62,704 nt of DNA from Roseateles koreensis. GTDB lineage: Bacteria; Pseudomonadota; Gammaproteobacteria; Burkholderiales; Burkholderiaceae_C. Positions 5,496-21,493 of the stretch are shown piece by piece. The DNA lies in assembly GCF_028595305.1 (NCBI RefSeq), contig NZ_JAQQXS010000022.1, forward strand, positions 1 through 62,704, in the 5' to 3' direction. The number at the start of each line of letters is the position of its first letter. Positions within the stretch are counted from its first letter, which is position 1. Position numbers and translations under genes: made by a program. Under the pieces are notes generated by a model. The model was not told the origin of the DNA. It searched no databases and worked only from the letters and a program-made list of their open reading frames with translations.

Positions 5496-5906
5496 TCAAA
5501 CCCGCCCGGCAGCCTCCAAAGCAGCCCACTCCGCGTCGTCATAAAGCCTCGACCGGGTCAGAAAGCGTTGGCCCGAAGCCCCCTCCAGCGAGAACATGCC
5601 GCCGCGCCCGGGCACCACGTCGATGATCAACTGCGTGTGCTTCCAGTACTCGAACTGGGATGTGCTGATGTAGAACGGCATGCCGCCAATGTCGCCCAGC
5701 AAGCGGTCACCCTCACCCGTCAGCAAATCACCGGCGGGGTAGCACATGGGCGCGCTGCCATCGCAGCAACCTCCCGACTGGTGGAACATCAGCGCGCCGT
5801 GCTGAGCCTTGATCTGGGCGATCAGAGCCAAGGCGGCCGGAGTGGCAACGACTTGGGAGACGCCGCCAGCCGCAGAGCCAGCCGAAGGTGAGGCAGGAGG
5901 TGACAT
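5496..5906 (-). CDS. DUF779 family protein, aldehyde dehydrogenase-associated
   Basis: A 136-residue soluble protein with HQSGGCCDGSAPMCYP near the N-terminus, the conserved cysteine cluster of DUF779, and WKHTQLIIDVVPGRGGMFSLE typical of the family. DUF779 genes are repeatedly found beside group X aldehyde dehydrogenases, as here, where it lies downstream of the dehydrogenase on the same strand with a 114-base gap. The biochemical function is not known; an accessory or metal/sulfur role is a guess from the cysteines. I chose ATG 5906 over an in-frame codon at 5921. Confidence 0.85.
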   Translation of the reverse strand: MSPPASPSAGSAAGGVSQVVATPAALALIAQIKAQHGALMFHQSGGCCDGSAPMCYPAGDLLTGEGDRLLGDIGGMPFYISTSQFEYWKHTQLIIDVVPGRGGMFSLEGASGQRFLTRSRLYDDAEWAALEAAGRV

Positions 5907-6020
5907 TGAACGAATTCCCAACTTGCGAAGCCCTTTGACGAACCCAGGGCGAACGGGAAAAAACTCCGCGAACGCCCTGAGCTAACGTCCCTACACCACG
6001 GATGCTTGGGACACTTGGCT

Positions 6021-7541
<1,521 letters not shown>

Positions 7542-7600
7542 CTTGAGTCTCCGCTGATAAGGGTTTTGTGGGGCCGCGATACCGGCCTCACCCCTTCAAA

Positions 7601-7615
7601 GCAGCTTGCGTGCCA
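7601..7615 (-). promoter_or_regulatory. Sigma-54 (-24/-12) promoter of the aldehyde dehydrogenase
   Basis: On the minus strand the sequence is TGGCACGCAAGCTGC: a perfect -24 half (TGGCACG), exact GG-N10-GC spacing and one change in the -12 half (CTGC for TTGC). Predicted start of transcription is near 7589, giving a leader of about 48 bases before ATG 7541. Confidence 0.8.
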
Positions 7616-7821
7616 ACCATTTGCAGGCGATGAAATCACGCACCCCCACCTTCGAAGCCCGCTTGCCTAGGGGAAAGCACGGACGCGCTGTTCCGTTGTG
7701 ACGCAATCAACAAGCCAGGGATGATGGCCTTGGACAGCCCGCCTGAAGACCGCGGCACCCAGCCTTGTTCAAAGCTGGTACAGCGAGGCTGAACCCGTGC
7801 GTTTGAGTGGCCATTTCGGCA

Positions 7822-7836
7822 TGGCACGCATGTTGC
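7822..7836 (+). promoter_or_regulatory. Sigma-54 (-24/-12) promoter of the PQQ alcohol dehydrogenase
   Basis: TGGCACGCATGTTGC matches the consensus TGGCACG-N4-TTGC exactly. The predicted start is near 7848, about 78 bases before ATG 7926, which is preceded by AAGGAGA. Confidence 0.88.
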
Positions 7837-7925
7837 GGATGAAGTCGGCGTCGTGCACATGGCACATCGCCCGGCGCGCGCTTGCACCCCGCTCATTTCC
7901 AAACCAAGACCACAAGGAGACCGAC

Positions 7926-9776
7926 ATGCCTTTGAAGCACCCCATTTTTTCCACGCATCGACCGTCAAGCCACGCACGCACCGCTCGGCGTGCACTGGCC
8001 GCCGCATGCGCGATCGCCCTGTCGAGCACGGCCCTGACGGGCTGGGCCGCCACCGGCCTCGTTACCGAACAAATGATTCAAGACGCGCCCAAGACCGGCG
8101 CCGAGGTGCTCTCGGCCGGCCTGGGCACCCAAGGCCAGCGCTTCTCTGCGCTAAAGCAGGTGAACACGGCCAATGTCGGTCGACTGGTGCCGGCCTGGGC
8201 TTTTTCGTTTGGCGGAGAAAAGCAGCGCGGACAAGAATCTCAGCCCTTGATTCACGACGGCAAGATGTTCGTCACCGCCTCCTACTCGCGCATCTACGCG
8301 CTGGACGCCAGCACCGGCAAGAAACTCTGGAAGTACGAGCACCGCCTGCCCGAAGGCATCATGCCCTGCTGCGATGTGGTCAACCGGGGCGCGGCGCTGT
8401 TCGACAACTTGGTGATCTTCGCCACCCTGGACGCGCAACTCGTCGCCCTGGATCAAAACACCGGCGAGGTGGTCTGGAAAGAAAAGATTGACGACTACGC
8501 CGCCGGCTATTCCGCCACCGCCGCGCCGTTGATCGCCGGGGGCTTGCTGCTGACGGGTGTTTCGGGCGGCGAGTTTGGCGTGGTGGGGCGCGTGGAAGCG
8601 CGCGACCCGCGTACCGGCCAGATGGTCTGGTCGCGCCCCACGGTGGAAGGCCATATGGGCTACCGCTACGACAAAGACGGCAAGAAAACCGAGAACGGCG
8701 TTAGCGGCACGACCAACCAGACCTGGCCCGGCGACCTTTGGAAAACCGGCGGCGCCTCCACCTGGATGGGTGGCACCTACGACGCCAAGACCGGCCTGGC
8801 TTATTTCGGCACCGGCAATCCCGCGCCCTGGAACAGCCATCTGCGCAAAGGCGACAACCTGTTCTCCTGCTCGACGGTGGCGGTGGACATCAAGACCGGC
8901 CAGATCCGCTGGCACTACCAAGGCACGCCCAACGACGCCTGGGACTTTGACGGCGCCAACGAGTTCATCACTTTCGACATGAATGGCCGGCGCATGGGCG
9001 GCAAGGCCGACCGCAACGGCTTTTTCTACGTCAACGACGCCAGCACCGGCAAACTCGTCAACGCCTTCCCCTTTGTGCGTCAACTCACCTGGGCCAGCGG
9101 CGTCGACCTGCAAACGGGCCGCCCCCAATTCATCGACGCCAACCGCAGCGGCGACCCCACGGCGGGCACGCCCGGCGCCGATGGGCATAAGGGCAAATCG
9201 GTTTTCGCGGCGCCCGGCTTTTTGGGCGGAAAAAACCAAATGCCCATGGCGTACAGCCCTGACACCCAGTTGTTCTACGTGCCCGCCAACGAGTGGGGCA
9301 TGGAGATCTGGAACGAACCCGTCACCTACAAAAAGGGTGCTGCCTACCTTGGCGCCGGCTTCACCATCAAACCGTTGAATGACGACTACATCGGCGCGCT
9401 GCGGGCCGTTGACCCCAAGACCGGCAAGATCGTCTGGGAGGTCAAAAACTACGCCCCGCTGTGGGGTGGCGTGCTGACGACCGGCGGCAATCTGGTGTTC
9501 TGGGGAACGCCCGAAGGCTTCTTGAAGGCCGCTGACGCGCGAACCGGCAAAGTGCTGTGGGAGTTCCAGACCGGCTCTGGCGTGGTGGCCCCACCCGTGA
9601 CCTGGATGCAAGACGGCGAGCAGTACGTCAGCGTGGTGTCGGGTTGGGGCGGCGCGGTGCCGCTATGGGGCGGCGACGTGGCCAAGCGCGTGAGCTTCCT
9701 GGAGCAAGGCGGCATGGTCTGGGTCTTCAAAATCCCCAAGGCCGGTGACCACACCAAGATCGCCAACGCCCGCTGA
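7926..9776 (+). CDS. PQQ-dependent methanol/ethanol-family alcohol dehydrogenase, probably lanthanide type
   Basis: A 616-residue periplasmic quinoprotein with an N-terminal signal peptide (cleavage likely after LTGWA, near residue 41) and eight-bladed propeller repeats such as [11 protein letters not shown] and [11 protein letters not shown]. The adjacent cysteines forming the unusual disulfide over PQQ are at 148-149 (PCCDVV). Metal ligands by family comparison are Glu216 (GGEFG), Asn298 (GTGNPAPWN) and catalytic Asp340. Asp342, two residues on in AWDFDGANE, is the extra acidic ligand that marks lanthanide enzymes (XoxF, PedH) and is Ala or Ser in calcium enzymes. AAGGAGA precedes ATG 7926. 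No fused haem domain is present, so it needs a separate cytochrome. The substrate (ethanol, longer or aromatic alcohol) cannot be fixed by eye. Confidence 0.92.
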
Positions 9777-9800
9777 TCACCCTGCCAACTCGCCATAGAC

Positions 9801-9827
9801 ACGTGGGCCCGAAACACGGGCCCACGT
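9801..9827 (+). terminator. Hairpin after the PQQ dehydrogenase
   Basis: Perfect 10-base arms ACGTGGGCCC / GGGCCCACGT around a 7-base loop, followed by a pyrimidine-rich but not T-only tract. It lies 24 bases after the stop codon and before the HiPIP gene, so it may end or attenuate transcription between the two. Confidence 0.65.
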
Positions 9828-9873
9828 TCTGTCTCTAAACCCTAATCGCACCCACCCAAGGGAGCCAACACCC

Positions 9874-10197
9874 GTGCAGCCCATTCTTTTTTCACGCCGC
9901 CAATTCAACCTCAGCCTTGCGCTGGCCAGCCTTTCATGCACCGTCGCCACGCGCGCCCACGCCGAGCCTGCCCACGTCAGCGAGGCCGATGAAACCGCGC
10001 AAGCCCTGGCCTATCGCCAGGACAGCAGCAAGGTCGATAGCAAGAAGTTCCCTCACCACGCTGCGATGCAACGCTGCAGCAATTGCAGCTTCTGGCAAGG
10101 CAAGCCGGATGACGCCTGGGCCGGCTGCGCCATGTTTGGCCGCAAGCACATCGCCCACACCGGATGGTGCCAAGCCTGGACCCCGCTGCCCGGCTGA
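9874..10197 (+). CDS. High-potential iron-sulfur protein (HiPIP), Tat-exported
   Basis: A 107-residue precursor. The leader has a twin-arginine motif (SRRQFNLSL, residues 7-15) with cleavage near residue 30 (TRAHA), consistent with export of a folded, cluster-loaded protein. The mature part has Cys68, Cys71, Cys85 and Cys99 (CSNC, GCAMFG, GWCQAW), the four ligands of the HiPIP [4Fe-4S] cluster. HiPIPs are soluble periplasmic one-electron carriers. GTG 9874 is supported by AAGGGAG ten bases upstream. It follows the PQQ dehydrogenase on the same strand, across a hairpin, which suggests that it accepts electrons from it or from its cytochrome. Confidence 0.9.
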   Translation: MQPILFSRRQFNLSLALASLSCTVATRAHAEPAHVSEADETAQALAYRQDSSKVDSKKFPHHAAMQRCSNCSFWQGKPDDAWAGCAMFGRKHIAHTGWCQAWTPLPG

Positions 10198-10205
10198 GAA
10201 ATTGC

Positions 10206-10229
10206 GCGCCCAGCGTCTTCTTCGGGCGC
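10206..10229. terminator. Hairpin between convergent HiPIP and TonB receptor genes
   Basis: GCGCCC (10206-10211) and GGGCGC (10224-10229) pair around a 12-base loop and are followed on the plus strand by TTTACT. The 33-base gap between two convergent stops makes a shared terminator reasonable, although the T-tract is short. Confidence 0.4.
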
Positions 10230-10230
10230 T

Positions 10231-12759
10231 TTACTCCCCGAAGGTGTAGCGCACGCCCACCCAGGCCGCCCGGGGAGCGCCGGGCGCAAAGAAGGTGCTG
10301 TGCACCAGGGGATAGTCGCCACCCGCGTTCTGGGGCAAGGGCCGGGCCTGGAAATTCCCACGCGCATCAAAGGCGTTCGCCCCGAGTTGCGCGGCGCTCA
10401 CATAACGGCGGTCCAGCGCGTTGTTGACCTGCACAAATGCTTGCAACGCGGGGCTGAAACGGTAGTCGCCGTGGAGGTTCAACACCGCGTAGCCGGGGCT
10501 GCGGCCCGGGCCGGTGTAGAACACCCCGTCGGGCTGATGCTGCGCGTTCTCGTTGCCCCGGGCCCTCGCTTCACTGACGGCATTCAGGTCCATGCCCACC
10601 CGCCATTGCGGCGCGAACGCCCAGTCGGCTGACAGCTTGAGCTGCTGGCGCGGCAACAAGGGGATGCGATCGCCAGGCTGAATTTGAATGGAGCCCTCGC
10701 CCCCCGGCTGCCCCGCCAAGGCGCCCGAATTGCTGCTGTTACCGGCGCCCGGCAGGGTTTCGCTGGACTGGTAGGTCGCGTCCAGCAGGCTGAAGCTCGC
10801 GGCCAGGCTCAGGGTGCGCGTCGGGTGTGCGTCAAGGCTGAACTCGAGGCCCTGGCGGCGTGTTTTGCCAAAATTTCGAAAGTAGCCGAAGCCGCTCACC
10901 CGGTCGCTCACGAACAGTAAATCGTCACGATTCTCCGCCCGGTAGAGACCCAGATGCCAGCTCAGATCACCCGGTTCGCCACCGGGCCAGCCCGTTTGAA
11001 CGCGGCCGCGCAAGCCCATCTCCACGTTGATCGTGACGACTTGCCGCAGCGGCGGGTCGCCGGCAAAAGCATTGGGCAGCTTGCAAGGGTTGGCGGGGTC
11101 GGCACACCCGAGTTCAACCGCGGTGGGCGCTCGCGTGCCCTGATTGGCGCCTGCATAAAAAGCCAGCCCGGGGCGAACATCCAAGGCCAACCCAAGCCCG
11201 GGGTTGAAGTGCGCGTACGCGGCATTGGCATCCAGCGAGCCCGCGCCTCCACCGGGCGTGAGTACGTCCTGGTTGCGCAGGTGATGGCGGTTGTAACGCC
11301 CAGACAACGTCAAGTGGGCCGCGTCATTCAGCGCCAGCACCGTACTGGCAAAGACGCTGGCCGTCTGGGTATGGCTGTTCAGGTTCACCCGGGCGTCAAA
11401 GGCGCCCTCGCCTTGCTGGCTGCCATCGGCAAACGCGCCCAGTCCCTCCACGGCGCTCACGGTGTGATCCGCGTTGAGCGCGCCGAACTGCGTCGCCTGG
11501 CGAAAATTCAGCTGAGCAACGTCCAGCGCCGCACCCAGCAACCATTGCTGCGCCACGCCCGCCAGCGTCCCCTGCCCCTCGGCCTGCACGTTGACGCCGG
11601 CGTTGTGTTGCGTGCTCTGCGTGGTGTTGAGCAGGCCATTGCAAACTAGCTGTGGCGCCAGATTCGCGGCGACTTGCGCCTGGCAATTGGCGCGCAGGCC
11701 CGCGAATGACACGCCAGCCGTGTCGGCTTGGCCCAGCGCGCTCTCATTCACATCACCATTGAGCGCTTGTGTGCGGATGTGGCGGTCATACACGTTGCCG
11801 GCCCACTGCACGCCCTGCTGCGTTTTTTGCCGCAAGGTGAGGTTGAACAATTGCGCTTGATTGCGCGTCCGGTCGGGCTGGCTGTAGACGCTGCGCCAAT
11901 TCGTCCGCAAGGCCGCTTGGGTCTGCAGGCCGTTGCCGGTCAACTCGTTGTCGGCCAAGGCAGCCGTCAGGCGCGCCTCCCCATTCGACCATTGCATGCC
12001 CAGCTTGCCGAACAGCTGGCGTACATCGCTGGGCGACGCGTCACGCCAGCCTTGCTCATGAAAACGCTGGCCGGTGAGGAACCAATGCCAAGCCCCTGCA
12101 AATCCGCCGGAACCACCGCTCTCGAACTGTGCGGCGCGGCGCCCGCCGCTGCCCCCTTCCAGTTGCAGCACCTGGCCCGGCGACGTCAGCCCGTCTTTGG
12201 TTTGCACAGCGATGGCGCCGCCCAGCGCATTCAAGCCAAACAAGGGATTGCTGCCAGGCATCAAGCTCACGCTTGAGATGGCTGAACGCGGGATCAAATC
12301 CCAGCTGACTACATCACCAAAAGGCTGATTCAGCCGCACGCCGTCCATGTACACCGACAAGCCCTGCGGCGTGCCCAGCAAGGGCGAGGCGGTGTAGCCC
12401 CGGTATTGCAAATCCATCTGAAATGGATTGCCCTGCATGTCATTGGCGCTGACCCCCTGAAGCTTGCGCACCAAATAGTCCGACAAATCCAAAGCGTGAC
12501 CGCGCGCCATGTCAGCTTCGTCAAAAGTCTGCACGGGCATGGCCAACCAGTCTTTGGGCACGCCTGAGCCTGGCACCCCACCCGGCCCCGGTGCAACGAT
12601 CTGCACGGCCGGCAGCACAAGTGCTTGGGCTTGCTGCGTATCGGCTGGATGGGCCGAATTGGGGTTTGCAGCCCAAGCCGCCGACCCACCGTTCAAGAGG
12701 AGCAGCGTGCCTGCTGCAATACCCGCCCGCCGTCGCTCAGATTTTCTCAACCGATTCAC
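10231..12759 (-). CDS. TonB-dependent outer membrane receptor, ligand unknown
   Basis: An 842-residue receptor from GTG 12759. It has a basic, hydrophobic signal peptide ending near GGSAAWA. The plug domain contains QYRGYTASPLLGTPQGLSVY and MDGVRLNQPFGDVVSW, then LMPGSNPLFGLNALGGAI. A long beta-barrel ends in VGVRYTFGE. The start lies inside the last codons of the activator gene (23-base overlap), so the two are translationally coupled. The frame could begin at 12831, but that would overlap the regulator further without looking like a leader. Ligand is not known. Its place in a PQQ/lanthanide-type alcohol locus suggests a metal chelate or cofactor; iron siderophore uptake cannot be excluded. 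Confidence 0.85.
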   Translation of the reverse strand: MNRLRKSERRRAGIAAGTLLLLNGGSAAWAANPNSAHPADTQQAQALVLPAVQIVAPGPGGVPGSGVPKDWLAMPVQTFDEADMARGHALDLSDYLVRKLQGVSANDMQGNPFQMDLQYRGYTASPLLGTPQGLSVYMDGVRLNQPFGDVVSWDLIPRSAISSVSLMPGSNPLFGLNALGGAIAVQTKDGLTSPGQVLQLEGGSGGRRAAQFESGGSGGFAGAWHWFLTGQRFHEQGWRDASPSDVRQLFGKLGMQWSNGEARLTAALADNELTGNGLQTQAALRTNWRSVYSQPDRTRNQAQLFNLTLRQKTQQGVQWAGNVYDRHIRTQALNGDVNESALGQADTAGVSFAGLRANCQAQVAANLAPQLVCNGLLNTTQSTQHNAGVNVQAEGQGTLAGVAQQWLLGAALDVAQLNFRQATQFGALNADHTVSAVEGLGAFADGSQQGEGAFDARVNLNSHTQTASVFASTVLALNDAAHLTLSGRYNRHHLRNQDVLTPGGGAGSLDANAAYAHFNPGLGLALDVRPGLAFYAGANQGTRAPTAVELGCADPANPCKLPNAFAGDPPLRQVVTINVEMGLRGRVQTGWPGGEPGDLSWHLGLYRAENRDDLLFVSDRVSGFGYFRNFGKTRRQGLEFSLDAHPTRTLSLAASFSLLDATYQSSETLPGAGNSSNSGALAGQPGGEGSIQIQPGDRIPLLPRQQLKLSADWAFAPQWRVGMDLNAVSEARARGNENAQHQPDGVFYTGPGRSPGYAVLNLHGDYRFSPALQAFVQVNNALDRRYVSAAQLGANAFDARGNFQARPLPQNAGGDYPLVHSTFFAPGAPRAAWVGVRYTFGE

Positions 12760-14956
12760 CGACGTTCTTGAGCAGCTTTCGATAGATGGTGTTGCGGCTG
12801 ATGCCCAGCTGTTTGGACGCTGCGGACACATTGCCGCCCACGGCGGCCAGCACCTTGCGGATCATGTCAATTTCCGCTTGCTCCAGGGTGTGCTGGGGCA
12901 CCGGCGTATAGCCGCCAAGCACGGCGGTTTGGGTGCTGCGCATGGCCAACTCGTGGGGTGGGCAGGATTCGAACACGAGTGGGTTCAAAAAACTCGCATC
13001 AATGGCTTGCCGCTCGCCCGAGGGCTTGAACGGTGTGCTGTGGCACTGCGGCACCGGGCTGCTTTCATCGGCAGTAACGCCCTGCCTGTCGGCACCTTCG
13101 GCCACCGGAGACAAAGGCACGTCAACGGCCGCCAGCTGGAGAGAAATACACTGCCCCAGTTGGGCCTGCGCCTCCTCCAGAAAATCGTCCGACAGATGGC
13201 TACAGTTGATCTGCGCTTCACCGGCAGACATGACTGCTGCCGTGCGCAGCACATTGGCCAGTTGGCGGATGTTGCCGGGCCAGCTATAGCACTGAAACAG
13301 CTGCCGCACCTTGGCACTCAAGGTGGGCGGATCGTGAGGCCGCTCGGTCAACAAAATACGGCGGACGATGGCCTCGAGGTCACTGCGCTCACGCAGGGCC
13401 GGCAGCCGCACGGCCAGGCCGTTGAGGCGGTAATACAGGTCTTCACGAAAGGTTTGCGCAGCAATCATCTCGCGCAGATTGCGGTGGGTGGCACAGAACA
13501 CGGCGATGTCCACGGCGATGGATTTATTCGAGCCCAAGGGCGTGACGCTGCGCTCTTGCAGCACGCGCAGGAGCCGGGCCTGCAAGGGCTGCGGCATGTC
13601 GCCAATTTCATCCAGAAACAAGGTGCCGCCATTGGCCTGCAAAATGCGACCCACCGCCCCCTTGCGGCGTGCACCGGTGAAGGCGCCGTCTTCGTAGCCG
13701 AACAGCTCCGCCTCGATCAAAGTTTCCGGAATCGACGCGCAATTGACCGCAACAAAGGGCTGGCGTGCGCGCTTGGAGTCCACATGCACGGCCCGCGCCA
13801 GCAGTTCTTTGCCGGTGCCCGTTTCACCCAGGATCAGCAAAGGGATGTCACGGTCCAGCACGCGCTGCACCTTGCCGACGAGCACCTCCACCTGCGCATC
13901 ACCTGTGCGCAGGTATTGCAGGCCTGACAGTTTGCAGCCACCGCTGGAGCCACTGTTGGCGCTGCGGGCGTCGTCGTCGCACGGCTCGGCGGCAGGGGCA
14001 ATCTCTTCGACCACCTGCCGCTCGACCTCATCACCCGCCAAGCCCAGGCCGGCCACGACAGGGCGCGAGGGCCAGTCAAAACGGGCGCTGACATAGACCC
14101 CCTGCCCGCTGAGCAGCTTGAGCTGCATGGGCGCCGACATAGGCATGCGGAAATGGTCGTAAATGGCCGCCGTGGTGGTGCCCAAAAGGCCAGACAAGGT
14201 TTGCGCACGCAGCGCCGCGCCGCTCAGGCCCAGTTGGTCCAGTGCGCCCCGATTGGCGCCCAGCAGCCGACCATCAGCGCCCACCACCAAAATGCCCTCC
14301 AGCAAGGTGCCGATGAACTCGGCCCGGCTGTGGAAGTGCAGGCGCAAGCGGTTGTTGCAATCGTCGGACAGCCAATGGTTCTCGATCATGCGGGCCGACA
14401 TGCGCACCAGCCCCATGGTGTGCTGGTGATAGCTGCGTTGGTCGCCCGAGACGTCCAGCACGCCGAGCATATTGCCACGCGGGTCGAAGATGGGCGCTGC
14501 CGAACAGGTCAAAAAACTGTTGGCGTGGATGAAATGCTCCGGCCCATGCACCAGGGTGGCCGTGCCTTCAAACAAGGCCGTGCCCACGGCATTGGTGCCC
14601 ATCGAATGCTCGGCCCAGTTGGCCCCCGGCGCCAGCGCCACCTTGTCGGCGCGGGCCAGAAAATCATCGTCGCCGACTGAATGCAAGACCGTGCCCGCCG
14701 CGTCGGTCAGCACGATCATGCTGTCGGTGTTGCGGATCTGCTCGAACAGCATGTGCATCACCGGCGCCGCGTGCAAGTAGAGCCGCCGATTGCGCTCCCT
14801 GGCCAGCGTCAGGTCGCTGCGCACCATGGGCTCCACCGCCAGTCGGGCATCACGGGACAAGCCCAGCCCCGCACTGCGTTGATGCGAGCGTTCGATGAAA
14901 GCGGCCCGTGGCAGGGCAGCGGCCGCAACGTCAACTTCTCGGTTGGACGTCGTCAT
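12737..14956 (-). CDS. AcoR-like sigma-54-dependent transcriptional activator
   Basis: A 739-residue enhancer-binding protein. The N-terminal part is a GAF-type sensor (residues about 40-210), followed by a PAS-like segment (FIGTLLEGILVVGADGRLLG). The AAA+ domain has Walker A GETGTGKE (about 378), the sigma-54 contact loop GAFTGA (about 425) and Walker B GGTLFLDEIG (about 448). A Fis-type helix-turn-helix closes the protein (GGNVSAASKQLGISRNTIY). AcoR relatives respond to acetoin, alcohols or aldehydes. ATG 14956 is preferred because AAGGA lies upstream at usable spacing. It is divergent from the cytochrome c operon, and three sigma-54 promoters in the locus (7601, 7822, 15117) are its likely targets. 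Confidence 0.92.
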   Translation of the reverse strand: MTTSNREVDVAAAALPRAAFIERSHQRSAGLGLSRDARLAVEPMVRSDLTLARERNRRLYLHAAPVMHMLFEQIRNTDSMIVLTDAAGTVLHSVGDDDFLARADKVALAPGANWAEHSMGTNAVGTALFEGTATLVHGPEHFIHANSFLTCSAAPIFDPRGNMLGVLDVSGDQRSYHQHTMGLVRMSARMIENHWLSDDCNNRLRLHFHSRAEFIGTLLEGILVVGADGRLLGANRGALDQLGLSGAALRAQTLSGLLGTTTAAIYDHFRMPMSAPMQLKLLSGQGVYVSARFDWPSRPVVAGLGLAGDEVERQVVEEIAPAAEPCDDDARSANSGSSGGCKLSGLQYLRTGDAQVEVLVGKVQRVLDRDIPLLILGETGTGKELLARAVHVDSKRARQPFVAVNCASIPETLIEAELFGYEDGAFTGARRKGAVGRILQANGGTLFLDEIGDMPQPLQARLLRVLQERSVTPLGSNKSIAVDIAVFCATHRNLREMIAAQTFREDLYYRLNGLAVRLPALRERSDLEAIVRRILLTERPHDPPTLSAKVRQLFQCYSWPGNIRQLANVLRTAAVMSAGEAQINCSHLSDDFLEEAQAQLGQCISLQLAAVDVPLSPVAEGADRQGVTADESSPVPQCHSTPFKPSGERQAIDASFLNPLVFESCPPHELAMRSTQTAVLGGYTPVPQHTLEQAEIDMIRKVLAAVGGNVSAASKQLGISRNTIYRKLLKNVGESVEKI

Positions 14957-15116
14957 GATGCAGATCCTTTTTGCCGCCATGCGGCTTGTCTCTTTATTGT
15001 TCGCCCTACCTGATGCTGAGCGACGGATGGGTCAGGCTGATCTTGCGATTCGCTGTGCTTCTTGTCCATGGAACATTCCCGAGGCGGGGCTGTGTCAGTT
15101 TGGAACACCCGCAGCT

Positions 15117-15131
15117 TGGCACAGAGCTTGC
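15117..15131 (+). promoter_or_regulatory. Sigma-54 (-24/-12) promoter of the cytochrome c - pqqU operon
   Basis: TGGCACAGAGCTTGC, followed by A, has intact TGGCAC and TTGCA halves with exact GG-N10-GC spacing. Predicted start is near 15143, about 65 bases before ATG 15208. It should drive all five genes to 20335, as gaps between them are small. Confidence 0.87.
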
Positions 15132-15207
15132 AATCGTCGGGCTCCAAAGCCCTGAAGACGGCCCCAGGCCGCGCAGCCAATCCATGCCAACCATCCAGGA
15201 GACAAGC

Positions 15208-15729
15208 ATGACCTACCCGACGAACACACCCCTGCCCCCCGCCCCAACGCGACGCCGCAAAGCATTTTGGCTGGGCGGCCTGACCTGCACCTTGCTGCTG
15301 AGCGGCCTGGCGTGGTCGCATGGCGACGTCACCCCCCAGGCTGTAGACACCAGCACCCTGCCCCGACTGGGAGAGGGCTGGCGCGCCGAAAACCCCTACC
15401 GCGCCAACGAGGCAGCCATCAAGGTCGGCACCTCGGCCTTTGGACAGAATTGCGCCCGTTGCCACGGCCTGGAGGCGGTGTCAGGTGGCATCGCACCCGA
15501 TCTGCGCCGGCTCGATAACGACTGCGCCAGCCTCAAAGACGCCAAACGCAGGGATGCCTGCGTGAAGGACAACGACGACTACTTCCTCACCACCGTGCGC
15601 CATGGCCGCAGCCGCAACGGCGCAGTCTATATGCCGCCTTTTGAGGGAACTTTTGATCAAGAAGCCATCTGGGCGATCAAGAGCTACCTCGAAACCCGGC
15701 GCGAAAAACCACTGCAGGCGGCGCAATGA
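15208..15729 (+). CDS. Cytochrome c (PedF/cytochrome c550 type)
   Basis: A 173-residue monohaem cytochrome with an N-terminal membrane/signal segment (KAFWLGGLTCTLLLSGLAWS). The haem site is NCARCHGLEAVSGG, and a likely axial Met lies in AVYMPPFEG. The pattern TVRHGRSRNGAVYMPPFEG matches cytochrome c550 proteins encoded with PQQ alcohol dehydrogenases (PedF). It should take electrons from the quinoprotein in the periplasm. AGGAGA lies seven bases before ATG 15208. The stop overlaps the next start (ATGA at 15726-15729). First gene of the sigma-54 operon. Confidence 0.9.
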   Translation: MTYPTNTPLPPAPTRRRKAFWLGGLTCTLLLSGLAWSHGDVTPQAVDTSTLPRLGEGWRAENPYRANEAAIKVGTSAFGQNCARCHGLEAVSGGIAPDLRRLDNDCASLKDAKRRDACVKDNDDYFLTTVRHGRSRNGAVYMPPFEGTFDQEAIWAIKSYLETRREKPLQAAQ

Positions 15730-16562
15730 ACGCCCAGCGCCGCGCCTGGCTGGCACGCGCCGCATCAGCGGCCCTGCTGGCCCACTTTGCCGGCCCCGCC
15801 GAGGCAACCAGCCTGAGCAAGATCCGCGAACGCGGCACCTTGCGGGTAGGCATCTACCAAGACATGCCGCCCTTTCACGTGGCCGGCCTGGGGGTGGATG
15901 TGGACCTCGCTCAGGCCTTGGCACAGGCCTTGGGCGTCAAGCTCAGCCTGTTGCCCTTCAACGCCGACGAGAACATGCTGGACGACCTGCGCAATATGGT
16001 CTGGAAAGGCCACTACCTCGGCTACGGCCCCGCCGACGTGTTGATGCATGTGCCAGTCGACCGCCCGCTCATGGACGCCTGCCCCCAGGTGCAGATCCTG
16101 GCGCCCTACTACCGGGAGCGGGTCATGATCGCCCGCGACGTGCACAAGCTGCCGCGGCTGGAACAACTGTCGCAAATCGGCACGCAAACCATCGCCGTAC
16201 CCGGCCAAACCCTGGCCGGCTGGCTGTTGTTGGGTGCGGATCAAGGCGCCTACCGCCAGCAACTCAGCACCCAATGGCCGGACGGCTGCGCCTGCGCGCA
16301 AGCCTTGCAGCGGGGTGAGGTGGCGGCAGCCGCCGGGCTGGCTTCAGAGCTGCAGAGCATCTTGCGCGATCAGCCCCAGTACGCCATTGAAGCGCTACCG
16401 CTGCCGCGCCTGCCCCGCGAAGGCTGGGCCATCGGCCTGGCCGTCAAGGCCGGTGAAACAGAACTCGCGCGGACGCTGCAAGAAGCCGTCAGCACTTTGA
16501 GCCAAACCGGCAGCCTGCGAACCCTCTTCGAGGCGCACAAGGTGGGCTGGACGCCGGTCTGA
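15726..16562 (+). CDS. MoxJ/XoxJ-like periplasmic binding protein linked to quinoprotein dehydrogenase
   Basis: A 278-residue solute-binding-fold protein with a signal peptide ending near AGPAEA and the RGTLRVGIYQDMPPFHV start of family 3 binding proteins. The motif GYGPADVLMHVPVDRPLM is typical of the quinoprotein dehydrogenase-associated group (MoxJ, XoxJ, PedG-like). These proteins are not ABC transporter receptors. XoxJ is thought to help activate or assemble the dehydrogenase, and no transporter genes adjoin it here. Four-base overlap with the cytochrome gene. Confidence 0.87.
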   Translation: MNAQRRAWLARAASAALLAHFAGPAEATSLSKIRERGTLRVGIYQDMPPFHVAGLGVDVDLAQALAQALGVKLSLLPFNADENMLDDLRNMVWKGHYLGYGPADVLMHVPVDRPLMDACPQVQILAPYYRERVMIARDVHKLPRLEQLSQIGTQTIAVPGQTLAGWLLLGADQGAYRQQLSTQWPDGCACAQALQRGEVAAAAGLASELQSILRDQPQYAIEALPLPRLPREGWAIGLAVKAGETELARTLQEAVSTLSQTGSLRTLFEAHKVGWTPV

Positions 16563-16570
16563 ACCCGCGC

Positions 16571-16594
16571 GTTCGGACTCAGCTTGTCGAAGCC
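16571..16594. repeat. REP-like dispersed repeat, copy 1
   Basis: This 24-base segment matches the reverse complement of 62394-62417 at 22 of 24 positions; the shared core is CTTCGACAAGCT. It lies between the stop of the MoxJ-like gene and pqqU, where it may form RNA structure and affect readthrough. Similar short intergenic elements are common in proteobacterial genomes. Confidence 0.7.
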
Positions 16595-16643
16595 CCGCCG
16601 CCTATTTGAAGAAGTATTGAAGCATCAAACAAAGCCCACATCC

Positions 16644-18803
16644 ATGTCCACTCCCTTCCAATTTCGCCAATGGGCGCGCCTCGCCAGCCCGTGCTGCCTG
16701 TTGGCCGTGCCGACCTTGAGCCTGGCCCAGCAAGCTGAGGCCCCTTTTGCTCCCGTTATGCTTGAACGCACCGTGATCAGCGCCACACGCAGCGCGGTGC
16801 AGCCCTTCAACACCCCCGCGGCCATCAGCCGGGTCGACGGCGACGAACTGCGCGACAGCCACGCCCAGATCAATATCTCGGAGGGCTTGAGCGGCGTGCC
16901 GGGCCTGCTCGCGCGGGATCGGCAAAATTACGCCCAGGACGTTCAGTTGTCCGTGCGGGGCTTTGGTGCCCGCGCGAGTTTTGGCATTCGCGGCGTGCGC
17001 CTGTATGTGGACGGCATCCCCGCCACCCTGCCTGACGGCCAAGGCCAGATCAGCCATGTCGAGCTGGGTTCGGTCGAACGCATTGAGGTATTGCGCGGCC
17101 CGTTTTCAGCGCTGTACGGCAACGCCTCAGGCGGCGTGATTCAGGTGTTCACTGAAGACGGCAGCGCGCCACCGCGCCTGAGCTTCAACGTCGCGGCGGG
17201 CAGCGATGGGCTGCACCGCCTGAGCGCGCAAGCCCGAGGCGCCACAGACGCCGGCCTGAACTACACACTGGGTGCCAGCCGCTTCCAGACGGAGGGATAT
17301 CGCCAGCACAGCGACACCGATCGCCGCTTGGCTAACGCCAAACTCAGCTGGCAACTCGACCCGCAAAGCCGCCTCACCCTGGTGTTGAATGCGCTCGACT
17401 TGCCGCAGGCCCAAGACCCCATGGGGTTGTCTCGCGCACAGCTGGCCGGCGACCCGCGTGGCGTGGACTCTAGCGCGCTCAGTTTCAACACCCGCAAGAC
17501 CCTGAAACAAACTCAGATGGGTGCCAGCATTGACCGGCAACTCGACGCCAACAACACCGTGCAGCTGACGGTGTATGGCGGCAGCCGCAGCACCGAGCAG
17601 TTTCAGTCCATCCCCGTCGCTGCGCAAAAAAGCCCCTTGCATCCTGGCGGCGCGATCGACCTGCACCGCGACTATGAGGGCGCCGACCTGCGTTGGAGCG
17701 GCAAGGCCAACAGCGGCTTGGGGCCCATCAACTGGACCGGCGGCCTCGCCTATGACTTGTTGAAAGAGCATCGCCAGGGCTACCAAAACTTCATCGGCAG
17801 CAGCTTGGGCGTGCAAGGCGCGCTGCGCCGCGATGAAAACAACACCGTCAGCAGTACCGATCCTTATGTGCAGGCCAACTGGCAGTTAGCACCCCAGATC
17901 AGCCTGAACGCGGGCGTGCGCCATTCCCAGCTGAACTTCAAATCCCAAGACCACTACGTCACCGCCAGCAATCCGGACGACAGCGGCAGCGCTCATTTCA
18001 GCGCCACCCTGCCCGTGCTGGGCCTGCTGTGGGCCGTGAGCCCCACCCTGCATGCCTACGCCACCGCAGGCCGGGGCTTTGAAACACCGACGCTCAACGA
18101 GCTGTCTTACCGGCCCAGCGGTGCCTCCGGGCTCAACTTCGCCTTGCAGGCCGCCCACAGCGACAGCATCGAATTGGGTGTGAAGTTGTCCAACAGCCCT
18201 CAGTGGGGAGAACTGGCCGCGTCGGTGTTCCAGACCGGCACAGACCAGGAGATCGTCACCCAAACCAACCTCGGCGGGAGAGCCACCTACCAAAATGCGG
18301 GCCGCACCCGCCGCCTCGGTTTTGAGTTGGCCTGGGCCAAAGCCCTGCTGCCCAATTTGCGCACCCAACTGGCCTATACCGCCCTGGACGCTGAATACCG
18401 CGATGGCTACATGACCTGCACCGCCACGCCTTGCGCCACCGCCAATCAAAGCGTAGCCGCTGGCAACAAGATGCCCGGTATCGCCAAGCACGCTCTGTTC
18501 GCGGCGCTTAACTGGGCGCCGCCCCAAGGCTGGCGCGCCGGTGTTGAAGCCCGGGCGTTGAGCCGCATCTACGTCAACGACCTCAACACCGACGCCGCAG
18601 CCGGCTACACCACGCTGGCCGCCAACGCCGGCTACGTGCTGGCCCTGGGGGCATGGGATCTCAACGCCATGGTGCGTGTCGATAACCTGTTAGATCAGCG
18701 TTATGTGGGTTCGGTCATCGTCAACGAAGGCAACGCCCGTTACTTTGAGCCCGCACCGGGCCGAACCTGGCTGGCCAGCGCCACCGCCAGCCTCAAGTTC
18801 TGA
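16644..18803 (+). CDS. pqqU: TonB-dependent PQQ receptor, PqqU (YncD) type
   Basis: A 719-residue outer membrane receptor with a signal peptide ending near TLSLAQ. The plug is strikingly like E. coli YncD/PqqU: DRQNYAQDVQLSVRGFGARA, then GIRGVRLYVDGIPATLPDGQ and EVLRGPFSALYGNASGGV. The barrel ends in LASATASLKF with a C-terminal Phe. PqqU imports pyrroloquinoline quinone with TonB energy. ATG 16644 is chosen over a TTG at 16584, which would add an unlikely stretch before the signal peptide. Lying in one operon with the cytochrome, MoxJ-like and YncE-like genes supports PQQ as ligand. The name follows motif recall, not an alignment. Confidence 0.87.
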   Translation: MSTPFQFRQWARLASPCCLLAVPTLSLAQQAEAPFAPVMLERTVISATRSAVQPFNTPAAISRVDGDELRDSHAQINISEGLSGVPGLLARDRQNYAQDVQLSVRGFGARASFGIRGVRLYVDGIPATLPDGQGQISHVELGSVERIEVLRGPFSALYGNASGGVIQVFTEDGSAPPRLSFNVAAGSDGLHRLSAQARGATDAGLNYTLGASRFQTEGYRQHSDTDRRLANAKLSWQLDPQSRLTLVLNALDLPQAQDPMGLSRAQLAGDPRGVDSSALSFNTRKTLKQTQMGASIDRQLDANNTVQLTVYGGSRSTEQFQSIPVAAQKSPLHPGGAIDLHRDYEGADLRWSGKANSGLGPINWTGGLAYDLLKEHRQGYQNFIGSSLGVQGALRRDENNTVSSTDPYVQANWQLAPQISLNAGVRHSQLNFKSQDHYVTASNPDDSGSAHFSATLPVLGLLWAVSPTLHAYATAGRGFETPTLNELSYRPSGASGLNFALQAAHSDSIELGVKLSNSPQWGELAASVFQTGTDQEIVTQTNLGGRATYQNAGRTRRLGFELAWAKALLPNLRTQLAYTALDAEYRDGYMTCTATPCATANQSVAAGNKMPGIAKHALFAALNWAPPQGWRAGVEARALSRIYVNDLNTDAAAGYTTLAANAGYVLALGAWDLNAMVRVDNLLDQRYVGSVIVNEGNARYFEPAPGRTWLASATASLKF

Positions 18804-18820
18804 GCCGCGCAAGGCCCTCG

Positions 18821-19357
18821 ATGCAAAGCTCTGTAAACACCTACAACCGAGTCGCCCGGGTGCTTCATGCCCTGACCGGCTTGGCACTGATTGTGCAGCT
18901 GGGTTTCGGCGTCCTGCTGGACGACCTGGCACCGCGCGGCACACCGGGCCGCGCCGGGTGGATCAACCTGCACAAGTCCGTGGGCCTGCTGTTGCTGCTG
19001 TTGGTGCTGCTGCGCCTGTTGTGGCGCCTGCGGCACCGCCCGCCCGCGTGGCCACCCAACATGTCAGCCGTTCAGCAACGGGCTGCCGGCTGGGGCCACG
19101 CCGCCCTGTATGCGGCCATGCTGGTGTTGCCAGCCTCAGGCTACGTGGCATCGAATTTCAGCAAGCACGGGCTGAAGTTCTTCGGCCTGCCGCTGCCCCC
19201 CTGGGGTACCAACCTGCCCCTGTTGTACGGCGCCTTGAGTACGCTGCACAAAATGAGCGCGCTGGCGCTGACCGTGCTGATTCTCGGCCACGTGGCGATG
19301 GCACTCAAGCACCAGTTCATGGACTGCGATGACCTGATGCGCCGCATCAAATTCTGA
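18821..19357 (+). CDS. Cytochrome b561 family protein
   Basis: A 178-residue inner membrane dihaem protein with four predicted helices: LTGLALIVQLGFGVLL, SVGLLLLLLVLLRLLW, ALYAAMLVLPASGYVA and LTVLILGHVAMALKHQF. Haem-ligand histidines are placed as in the b561 family (RVLHALTG, INLHKSVG, TLHKMSA, GHVAMALKHQ). It begins 17 bases after pqqU, in the same operon. It probably passes electrons between the periplasmic carriers and the quinone pool, or supports PQQ enzyme function. Confidence 0.88.
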   Translation: MQSSVNTYNRVARVLHALTGLALIVQLGFGVLLDDLAPRGTPGRAGWINLHKSVGLLLLLLVLLRLLWRLRHRPPAWPPNMSAVQQRAAGWGHAALYAAMLVLPASGYVASNFSKHGLKFFGLPLPPWGTNLPLLYGALSTLHKMSALALTVLILGHVAMALKHQFMDCDDLMRRIKF

Positions 19358-19387
19358 AAAACTTTTCAAAATCTTTTGAAAAACACC

Positions 19388-20335
19388 ATGCGCCACAGCC
19401 TCCACCGTCTCGCAATTCTTTCTGTGCTGCTGGGCCCTGCGAGCCTGCTGGCTGCGCCGCTGGCCTATGTTCCCAATGAAGGCTCGGGCACCGTTAGCGT
19501 CATCGATACCGCCTCTGACCAGGTGGTCGCTGAAATTCCAACCGGAAAAAAACCACGCGGCACGGTGCTCAGCCTGGACGGGCGCCGCGCCTACGTCAGC
19601 GACCAACCCAACAACCGCCTGGTGGTGCTGGACTTGCAAACCCGCCAGCCGGTGGGCGAAATCAAGCTGGGCGAATCGCCAGAGGGCGTGGGCATTTCAA
19701 GCGATGGGCGCTGGATTGCCGCCGCCATCGAGGAAAGCAATGAAGTTGTTTTCATCGACACCCGAACTGAGCAGCTCAGCTTCAAGGTCAGGCTGAAAGG
19801 GAAAAACCCCGAGCACGCCATGTTCAGCCCCGATGGACGCTGGGTCTTCGTCAGCGCCGAAGAAGGCGAAGCGGTGGACGTGATCGACGTCGAGCAACGC
19901 GAGCAGGTCGGGCAGATCTCCGTCGGCGCCCGACCGCGCGGCATCGGCTTTTCACCCGATGGCGCCGTGGCCTACGTCGCCGCAGAAAACGCCGACGAGG
20001 TCTACCTCATCGACGTCCCGCACCGCAAGGTGCTCAGCCGCATCAAGGCCGGGCTGCGCGCCAACGGCATCGCCGTCCACCCCGACGGCCGCCGGGTCTA
20101 CATCTCCAACGGCGGCGCCGCCACCGTCTCGGTGCTCGACACCCAAACGCTGAAAATCAGCGCCACCATACCCGTCGGGCAACGCCCCTGGAACATGGCC
20201 CTGACCCCAGATGGCAAAAAGCTCTACGTCGCCTGCGGCCGCTCCGGCGTGGTGTCAGTGATCGACACCGACACCCAGACCCGGTTGACCGACATCGCGG
20301 TGGGCAAACTGCCTTGGGGGGTTGCGGTGCGTTAA
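19388..20335 (+). CDS. YncE-like beta-propeller, PQQ-catabolism-associated
   Basis: A 315-residue exported protein with a signal peptide (LAILSVLLGPASLLAAP) and about seven YVTN-type blades, for example AYVPNEGSGTVSVIDTASDQ and AYVSDQPNNRLVVLDLQT. This matches the PQQ-dependent catabolism-associated propeller group. In E. coli the genes of YncE and YncD (PqqU) are neighbours, as here. It may bind PQQ, handle apo-enzyme, or bind DNA as reported for E. coli YncE; the role is open. ATG 19388 is chosen over a TTG at 19376. Last gene of the operon. Confidence 0.87.
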   Translation: MRHSLHRLAILSVLLGPASLLAAPLAYVPNEGSGTVSVIDTASDQVVAEIPTGKKPRGTVLSLDGRRAYVSDQPNNRLVVLDLQTRQPVGEIKLGESPEGVGISSDGRWIAAAIEESNEVVFIDTRTEQLSFKVRLKGKNPEHAMFSPDGRWVFVSAEEGEAVDVIDVEQREQVGQISVGARPRGIGFSPDGAVAYVAAENADEVYLIDVPHRKVLSRIKAGLRANGIAVHPDGRRVYISNGGAATVSVLDTQTLKISATIPVGQRPWNMALTPDGKKLYVACGRSGVVSVIDTDTQTRLTDIAVGKLPWGVAVR

Positions 20336-20357
20336 GAAGGTGCGCTCTGTGTCCCTG

Positions 20358-20606
20358 TCAATAATGCGGCGGCAACTCGTCTCTCAAACTGCGAAATGCT
20401 GGCGTGCCGTCGTCGCTGCGTTGCTCACGCAGCGCCAGTAGTTCATTGCGCAGCAGGTCGATTTGCTGCTGTTGCCTGACGACGATTTCGTTCAACTCGT
20501 CCAGCAGGTCTTCGTTGAAGCTGGCTTTGATTTCAAGGGCTGTGAGGCGGGCCTCAAGCTGGGGATCGATGGGGTGAGAGAGTTCCATCCTGCTATTGGA
20601 CGCCAT
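20358..20606 (-). CDS. slyX: SlyX family protein
   Basis: An 82-residue protein with the family core [20 protein letters not shown] then [18 protein letters not shown], predicted to form a coiled coil, and the PPHY C-terminus typical of SlyX. Function is not established. Start is uncertain between codons at 20606 and 20588; no clear ribosome binding site separates them. It is convergent with the yncE-like gene and divergent from trhO. Confidence 0.88.
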
Positions 20607-20653
20607 TTGGATGCGATTTTGGCGAGGCCCTTGCCTACAATCCGGCACTGACC

Positions 20654-21493
20654 ATGCCAAAAACCGATCTCCCCATTCTCAATATTTCTTCCTACAAGTT
20701 CGTCGGGCTGAACGATTGCGCTGCGCTGCGCGAGCAGTTGTTCGAGCGTGCGCTGGCCTTGGACTTGAAAGGCACCGTGCTGCTGGCGGAGGAAGGCATC
20801 AACCTATTTCTGGCCGGCTCCGCTGAAAACGTTCGGGCCTGGGTCGCTGCGCTGCGCCAAGACCCGCGCTTCGCCGACTTGGCGCCTAAAGAGAGCTGGA
20901 GCGCCTCGGTGCCCTTTAGAAAACTGCTGGTGAAGGTCAAACCGGAGATCATCCGCATGAACCACCCAGCCATTCGCCCCGACGCCCTGCCCCGTGCGCC
21001 TTCGCTGCCAGCCGTGACCCTGGCACGCTGGCTCGACCAAGGGCATGACGACGACGGCCGGCCGGTAGTAACCCTGGACACGCGCAATGCTTTTGAAGTG
21101 GACTACGGCACCTTCGAAGGGGCGATCGACTGGCGCATCGACAAGTTCAGCGAATTCCCGGACGCTGTACAGGCACACCGTCAGGACTTGATGGGCAAGA
21201 CGGTGGTGAGTTTTTGTACCGGCGGTATCCGCTGCGAGAAGGCGGCCATCTACCTGCAGCAACAAGGGCTGGACGGGCCGGTCTATCAGCTGGAAGGCGG
21301 CATCCTGAAATACTTCGAAGAAACGGGCGGTCCGCACTACGACGGCGCGTGCTTTGTTTTTGACCAGCGCGAGGCCCTGGATGCGGGCCTGGCCCCGTCG
21401 ACGGAGATCGTTCGCCCGGCATCTGAATCGCACCGAGCCAAACCTGACGCCACCCAGGCAGCCCAAGCAAGCCACCCAAGCCATGCCGACTGA
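20654..21493 (+). CDS. trhO: Oxygen-dependent tRNA uridine(34) hydroxylase
   Basis: A 279-residue cytoplasmic rhodanese-fold enzyme, formerly YceA, that makes 5-hydroxyuridine at the wobble position of certain tRNAs. The N-terminal ferredoxin-like part has [19 protein letters not shown], and the rhodanese domain carries [18 protein letters not shown], with the key Cys near residue 189. The final 25 residues are Ala/His-rich and non-conserved. The stop overlaps the start of the hydrolase at 21483 by 11 bases. Confidence 0.93.

Follow-up and report, generated by a model that had tools for sequence, protein, structure and literature searches.

Among the closest described counterparts of the locus analyzed here is the ped cluster of Pseudomonas putida (PedH, PedE, PedF; PedS2/PedR2, AgmR), which comprises the same enzyme type, the PedF cytochrome and the propeller protein. 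According to the available parts of two reports (PMC12997753, PMC6115532), the ped genes are controlled by LuxR-type regulation and a lanthanide two-component system, whereas sigma-54 and a GAF-type activator appear to take this role here. Sigma-54 control of a PQQ alcohol dehydrogenase as such has already been reported: the available part of PMC6115532 cites it for Azospirillum exaA, but there the partner is a LuxR-type regulator. BmoR of Thauera butanivorans is likewise an alcohol-responsive sigma-54 activator, which is likened to ours by description; in the available part of PMC8899819 its target is an alkane monooxygenase, activated from a site that lies 193 bp upstream, unlike the PQQ regulon presented here. 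Similarly likened by description are the sigma-54 alcohol regulons of Clostridiales (AdhR, AcoR and others), in which GAFTGA activators have distinct operators in front of alcohol genes, but these encode fermentative NAD(P) enzymes rather than PQQ enzymes (PMC6615313, available part). As to the cofactor, PMC12124388, in the part available, describes PQQ import without synthesis as common and finds only slight synteny of import and synthesis genes, from which separate regulation was inferred with four exceptions in Burkholderiales. Among the open-access full texts consulted, mostly represented by the openings of their abstracts, none was recognized as describing the operator or regulon reported below.

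We analyzed a 62,704-bp stretch of Roseateles koreensis DNA (the window), in one locus of which the initial annotation had proposed a single switch for periplasmic oxidation, electron transfer, cofactor import and aldehyde removal. The ExaC acetaldehyde dehydrogenase gene (6021-7541, minus strand; NF050026, 965.9 bits, cut-off 900) lies next to the PQQ alcohol dehydrogenase gene (7926-9776, plus strand; TIGR03075 over cut-off), whose product is the only match to this dehydrogenase in the genome at E 0.001. Of 6zcv and 1flg, which we take to be PedH and ExaA, respectively, this enzyme resembles the former more closely (834 vs 660 bits) and shares with it the motif WDFDG, where 1flg reads WDFSG. 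An aspartate two residues past the catalytic aspartate is a mark of lanthanide enzymes. The dehydrogenase carries this signature of the PedH/ExaF type, and lanthanide use is predicted. Directly behind it lies a HiPIP gene (9874-10197, plus strand; PF01355, 77.9 bits; start uncertain). A second run of genes on the plus strand, a putative operon, starts at 15208 with the gene for cytochrome c-550 PedF (15208-15729; TIGR04494, 198.7 bits, cut-off 122), which is overlapped by 4 bp by that for a periplasmic binding protein (15726-16562; PF00497), and continues with the PqqU-like TonB receptor gene (16584-18803, likelier start ATG 16644) and those for cytochrome b561 (18821-19357; PF01292) and a protein of the PQQ-associated beta-propeller type (19376-20335; TIGR03866, 221.3 bits, under the cut-off of 287.3). 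The receptor covers positions 5-675 of the 676 of NF041535 with 811.9 bits, under the cut-off of 1200, and matches the PQQ transporter of E. coli, PqqU (9c4o), over its full length (644.9 bits, residues 41-710); in the window it is placed with pedF in what would be a sigma-54-dependent operon.

Two further gene groups were noticed. An ORF for another TonB receptor (10231-12831, minus strand) overlaps the end of the activator gene described below and has homologues of 47-60% identity near the dehydrogenase in at least eight related loci; its top hits in the PDB are poor, PqqU among them with 52 bits, and a role for lanthanide or metallophore uptake is a guess. At the other end of the window, a Tli4-type immunity protein (PF18426; 1978-3027, plus strand) is encoded directly behind a large ORF (293-1981) that reads as a lipase; the two are perhaps an effector-immunity pair.

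The sigma-54 -24/-12 consensus is TGGCACGN4TTGCW, and promoter scores are given here as matches out of its 12 consensus positions. Three sites with exact GG-N10-GC spacing had been proposed for the locus, and all of them are present with 11/12 each, namely TGGCACGCAAGCTGCT upstream of exaC (7600-7615, minus strand), TGGCACGCATGTTGCG upstream of the PQQ dehydrogenase gene (7822-7837, plus strand) and TGGCACAGAGCTTGCA upstream of the pedF operon (15117-15132, plus strand). The additional statement that no site lies inside a gene holds if the dehydrogenase starts at ATG 7926, which is preceded by AAGGAG, and fails if it starts at GTG 7797, from which the mechanically called ORF would span the 7822 promoter. 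The genome contains one rpoN match, and a sigma-70 scan of positions 5900-21000 found nothing. In the window, the loose sigma-54 pattern (at most 3 mismatches) was not in excess, with 150 matches vs 172 expected from shuffles; sites of at least 10/12 numbered 22 (both strands, minus the first 260 bases of each), and a site of at least 11/12 occurred in 2.1% of random 400-bp stretches. Genome-wide, there were 93 sites with at most one mismatch vs 40 in the backward control, and this list by itself revealed no additional regulon members. Motif counts alone are thus poor evidence for the three sites. Since the generic scan showed no excess, we dropped such counts and used conservation as evidence, which together with a paired upstream palindrome decides in favor of the three sites being real.

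A search of relatives for conservation of the sites had been suggested by the initial annotation, and its outcome is clear. A promoter of at least 10/12 precedes the PQQ dehydrogenase gene in 72/81 loci, exaC in 17/17 and pedF in 23/26, counted over the best 80 of 366 candidate loci from a genome scan plus the window; matches below identity and coverage limits (50-70% and 50-80%) and upstream regions shorter than 150 bp were dropped in this footprinting. Such promoters occur in 3.8% of 5000 random 410-bp stretches, which were taken from the very same loci and hence include real sites. The activator gene has a sigma-54-like site upstream in just 2/27 cases by the same threshold and in the same set of loci. 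Nine dehydrogenase upstream regions fall short of 10/12 (L053, L079, L088, L097, L100, L101, L102, L105 and L106), among them three loci (L053, L102, L105) in which activator and pedF are present and a good dehydrogenase promoter is absent. Pairwise identity in the unforced motif columns amounts to 79-80%, compared to 31-43% in the spacer and 31-36% in the flanks, the motif figure being inflated by the selection of the 118/124 upstream regions that score at least 9/12. Because the flanks have diverged, mere relatedness is not the cause of motif conservation.

Over-represented words in the upstream regions revealed de novo a 17-bp palindrome, TGTTCCA-N3-TGGAACA. Two copies lie between exaC and the dehydrogenase gene: TGTTCCGTTGTGACGCA (7689-7705; score 10.4), whose center is 96 bp away from the -12 GC of exaC and 139 bp away from that of the dehydrogenase gene, and TGTTCAAAGCTGGTACA (7766-7782; score 19.1), whose center is 173 bp away from the former GC and 62 bp away from the latter. 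These two palindromes could serve both genes. The third copy, TGTGTCAGTTTGGAACA (15091-15107; score 19.7), is centered 32 bp from the pedF -12 GC. Among the 22 sigma-54-like sites of the window, only the three sites upstream of exaC, the dehydrogenase gene and pedF are paired with a strong copy (score 19.7 at pedF and 19.1 at each of the other two); one more site, within the exaC start, is paired with a palindrome scoring 11.2. Across the loci, a palindrome of at least 10 precedes the dehydrogenase gene in 65/76 cases, exaC in 16/17 and pedF in 23/25, as compared to 4% of 4000 random stretches. As a loose pattern, the palindrome occurs at 33 places in the genome vs 22 in the control, an undercount because neither palindrome of the exaC-dehydrogenase interval fits the pattern; the list by itself revealed no additional regulon members, and the copy at 15091-15107 was the only listed one noticed beside a listed promoter. 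Distances between palindromes and promoters follow the turn of the DNA helix: for 77 distances, R amounts to 0.77 with a period of 10.5 bp and to 0.79 with one of 10.75 bp (R = 0.60 when only distinct distances are counted).

Because training of the palindrome and counting share sequences, we tested 25 further loci from genomes of the same order, which have no identical 100-bp gene piece in common with the first set. A promoter was present in 21/25 and promoter plus palindrome in 17/25, with two loci scored as misses, one in which the N-terminus is cut (L025) and one that is distant (L027, 65% identity). Besides these two, the eight loci without both elements comprise two that are promoterless (L009 and L010) and four that carry an altered palindrome, TGTCTCA-N3-TGAGACA. 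In front of 18 other PQQ dehydrogenase genes, hand-chosen among the other matches of the same search, both elements were found in 0/18 cases, the promoter alone in two and a palindrome above 10 alone in one.

Enhancer sites are usually located farther from the promoter than the pedF palindrome, which ends just 10 bp before the -24 GG, a spacing unusual for an enhancer-dependent promoter. The palindrome could act as a repressor site or serve the divergently oriented activator gene, in which case pedF would be controlled unlike the other two units. The short spacing, with the center 32 bp from the -12 GC in the window and 31-32 bp in 17/25 loci, and the divergent activator gene speak in favor of such an arrangement. 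We nevertheless regard it as unlikely, since the pedF palindrome shares the helical phase of the distant sites, a second site is located further upstream in some loci, and the activator gene so rarely has a sigma-54-like site of its own.

The sigma-54 activator gene that the initial annotation had placed in the locus and described as AcoR-type was recognized, its domain make-up being AcoR-like: it extends from 12737 to 14980 on the minus strand and encodes GAF (PF01590), Sigma54_activat (PF00158) and HTH_8 (PF02954) domains, a GAFTGA loop and the recognition helix SRNTIYRKL. An activator match (E 1e-110) is present in 23/26 genomes having the dehydrogenase. One genome without such a match (G205) likewise lacks promoter and palindrome, and in two genomes (G354 and G056, corresponding to L009 and L010) the activator is encoded near the dehydrogenase gene, yet the promoter is absent there. 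The altered palindrome is that of one genus (L017, L019, L020 and L021), where it matches 12-13 of 14 positions in 4/4 genomes, while 2000 random stretches never scored above 11/14. A second, partial copy lies about 18 bp away in three of these loci (L017, L019 and L021). Two activators were found in this genus, encoded about 2 kb from the dehydrogenase gene, and both have the recognition helix GRATLYRKL instead of SRNTIYRKL; no promoter diverges from their genes (best scores 8 and 9 of 12), and in the other two genomes nothing matched the activator at E 1e-110. The joint change of helix and operator is a single evolutionary event, but it is what one would expect were the activator to bind the palindrome; the missing promoters next to these two activators and at L009 and L010 speak against it. 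Since both were altered together in one genus, the GAF-AAA-Fis activator of the locus very probably binds the palindrome. Promoters and palindrome could also be real and the palindrome be recognized by another sigma-54 activator or a LuxR-type regulator, for which the pairing of sigma-54 with a LuxR-type regulator at exaA of Azospirillum brasilense (cited in the available part of PMC6115532) sets a precedent, and a helix change that represents one event only leaves room for it. However, the activator gene adjoins the regulon in many loci and the pqq genes on two plasmid records, and its helix alters where the palindrome alters, which makes recognition by another regulator improbable. That the three sites match a common motif merely by chance, as the 22 window sites and the lack of excess of the loose pattern would permit, is hardly credible given conservation within near-random flanks and a palindrome paired at just these three.

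For the content of the regulon in relatives, we scanned the collected loci for composites of a promoter of at least 10/12 and an upstream palindrome of at least 14. This yielded 119 composites, vs only 3 when the palindrome was sought downstream. A script assigned them to the dehydrogenase (50), exaC (11), pedF (7), binding protein (6), activator (4), other genes (39) or none (2), but several rows of the classes other and binding protein are dehydrogenase, exaC or pedF promoters in the wrong frame, and the counts for pqqB and HiPIP given next supersede these classes. Both are new targets (pqqB: TIGR02108 over cut-off in the two examples tested; HiPIP: PF01355). Homologues of pqqB occur in 26 loci, 25 of which have upstream DNA to score: a promoter of at least 9/12 together with a palindrome of at least 10 was found in 20/25 and one of at least 10/12 with such a palindrome in 13/25, with random expectations of 2.6% and 1.7%, respectively. 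The composite is missing in L071, L090, L109, L110 and L075, the last of which offers no room; L090 and L110, with a match of only 35%, may not be genuine pqqB genes. HiPIP is encoded directly behind the dehydrogenase in 38/42 loci with a match, and the detached HiPIP genes, all from Curvibacter, have their own composite promoter in 4/4 cases. On plasmid records of Burkholderia multivorans and Variovorax boronicumulans, where the activator gene adjoins pqq genes, pqqA has a promoter of 11/12 with a palindrome of 18.9 and pqqB one of 9/12 with a palindrome of 19.4; a TonB receptor gene on the Burkholderia multivorans record has no palindrome. Single composites precede a porin gene (L034, no family match) and a NosR-like gene (L053), the upstream regions of NosR-like genes being otherwise bare (composite in 1/18).

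Nine composites that fall within or close to the coding sequence of what we read as a SoxYZ-like carrier (distance 66), and four in the activator reading frame near its start, were judged false. In Variovorax boronicumulans (L203:4001-7820), acs (acetate-CoA ligase) and an aldehyde dehydrogenase gene divergent from it have one palindrome in common (score 16.0), and their promoter sites score 10/12 and 9/12; acetate activation may also belong to the regulon.

The presence of pqqB in the regulon of relatives raises the matter of PQQ supply in the window organism. Its genome (completeness 100) contains no pqqC and, at E 1e-60, no pqqE (best match 80 bits vs a cut-off of 381); in the compared genomes, 17/26 for pqqE and 6/12 for pqqC are over cut-off. 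As the two synthesis genes searched are absent and a PqqU-like importer is encoded in the pedF operon, PQQ supply seems reduced to import. In relatives such as those of the Roseateles locus L032 and the Pelomonas locus L077, a pqqU-like gene lies behind pedF, and pqqB with the composite promoter is present as well. In the window organism, PQQ import seems to be under the switch that governs PQQ synthesis in relatives.

Together, conservation in relatives, an operator that was discovered de novo and is common to the promoters, and the co-change of operator and activator in one genus support the proposal of a single sigma-54 regulon comprising the three promoters, and we consider it highly likely that the three sites are working promoters of an activator-run regulon for alcohol oxidation and PQQ supply. 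In the mechanism we envisage, the activator would sense a small molecule via its GAF domain, most likely an alcohol or a derived aldehyde; this inducer is guessed from the example of BmoR (PMC8899819, available part), and the initial annotation had suggested ethanol, butanol and aromatic alcohols as substrates. It would bind TGTTCCA-N3-TGGAACA upstream of each promoter, assemble, contact sigma-54 RNA polymerase through its GAFTGA loop and spend ATP to open the promoter. Together, the lanthanide-type PQQ alcohol dehydrogenase with HiPIP, and PedF with the binding protein, the PqqU-like importer, cytochrome b561 and the propeller protein would be turned on, along with the divergent unit for ExaC. 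The same switch would drive the pqqB operon for PQQ synthesis in relatives, with import replacing synthesis here. More broadly, we lean towards a Burkholderiales-wide regulon in which one GAF-type activator, acting via TGTTCCA-N3-TGGAACA, joins lanthanide-type oxidation, electron carriers and PQQ supply, in which supply has moved from synthesis to import inside the regulon in the window organism, and in which a palindrome centered only about 44 bp before the expected transcription start suffices.

The operator, the active site of lanthanide type, the HiPIP gene that follows the dehydrogenase gene and the tie to PQQ synthesis go beyond the initial annotation. The data point to a mode of control that is conserved among Burkholderiales, Roseateles, Variovorax, Ideonella and Curvibacter among them, and distinct from that of Pseudomonas. 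With a likely activator and its operator named, the regulon becomes predictable species by species, and the genus with altered palindrome and helix supplies a natural counterpart with which DNA recognition by such activators can be studied. Activator and operator might be of use in an alcohol biosensor. For the biology of these bacteria, the regulon would represent a case in which synthesis and scavenging of a cofactor are governed by one switch.
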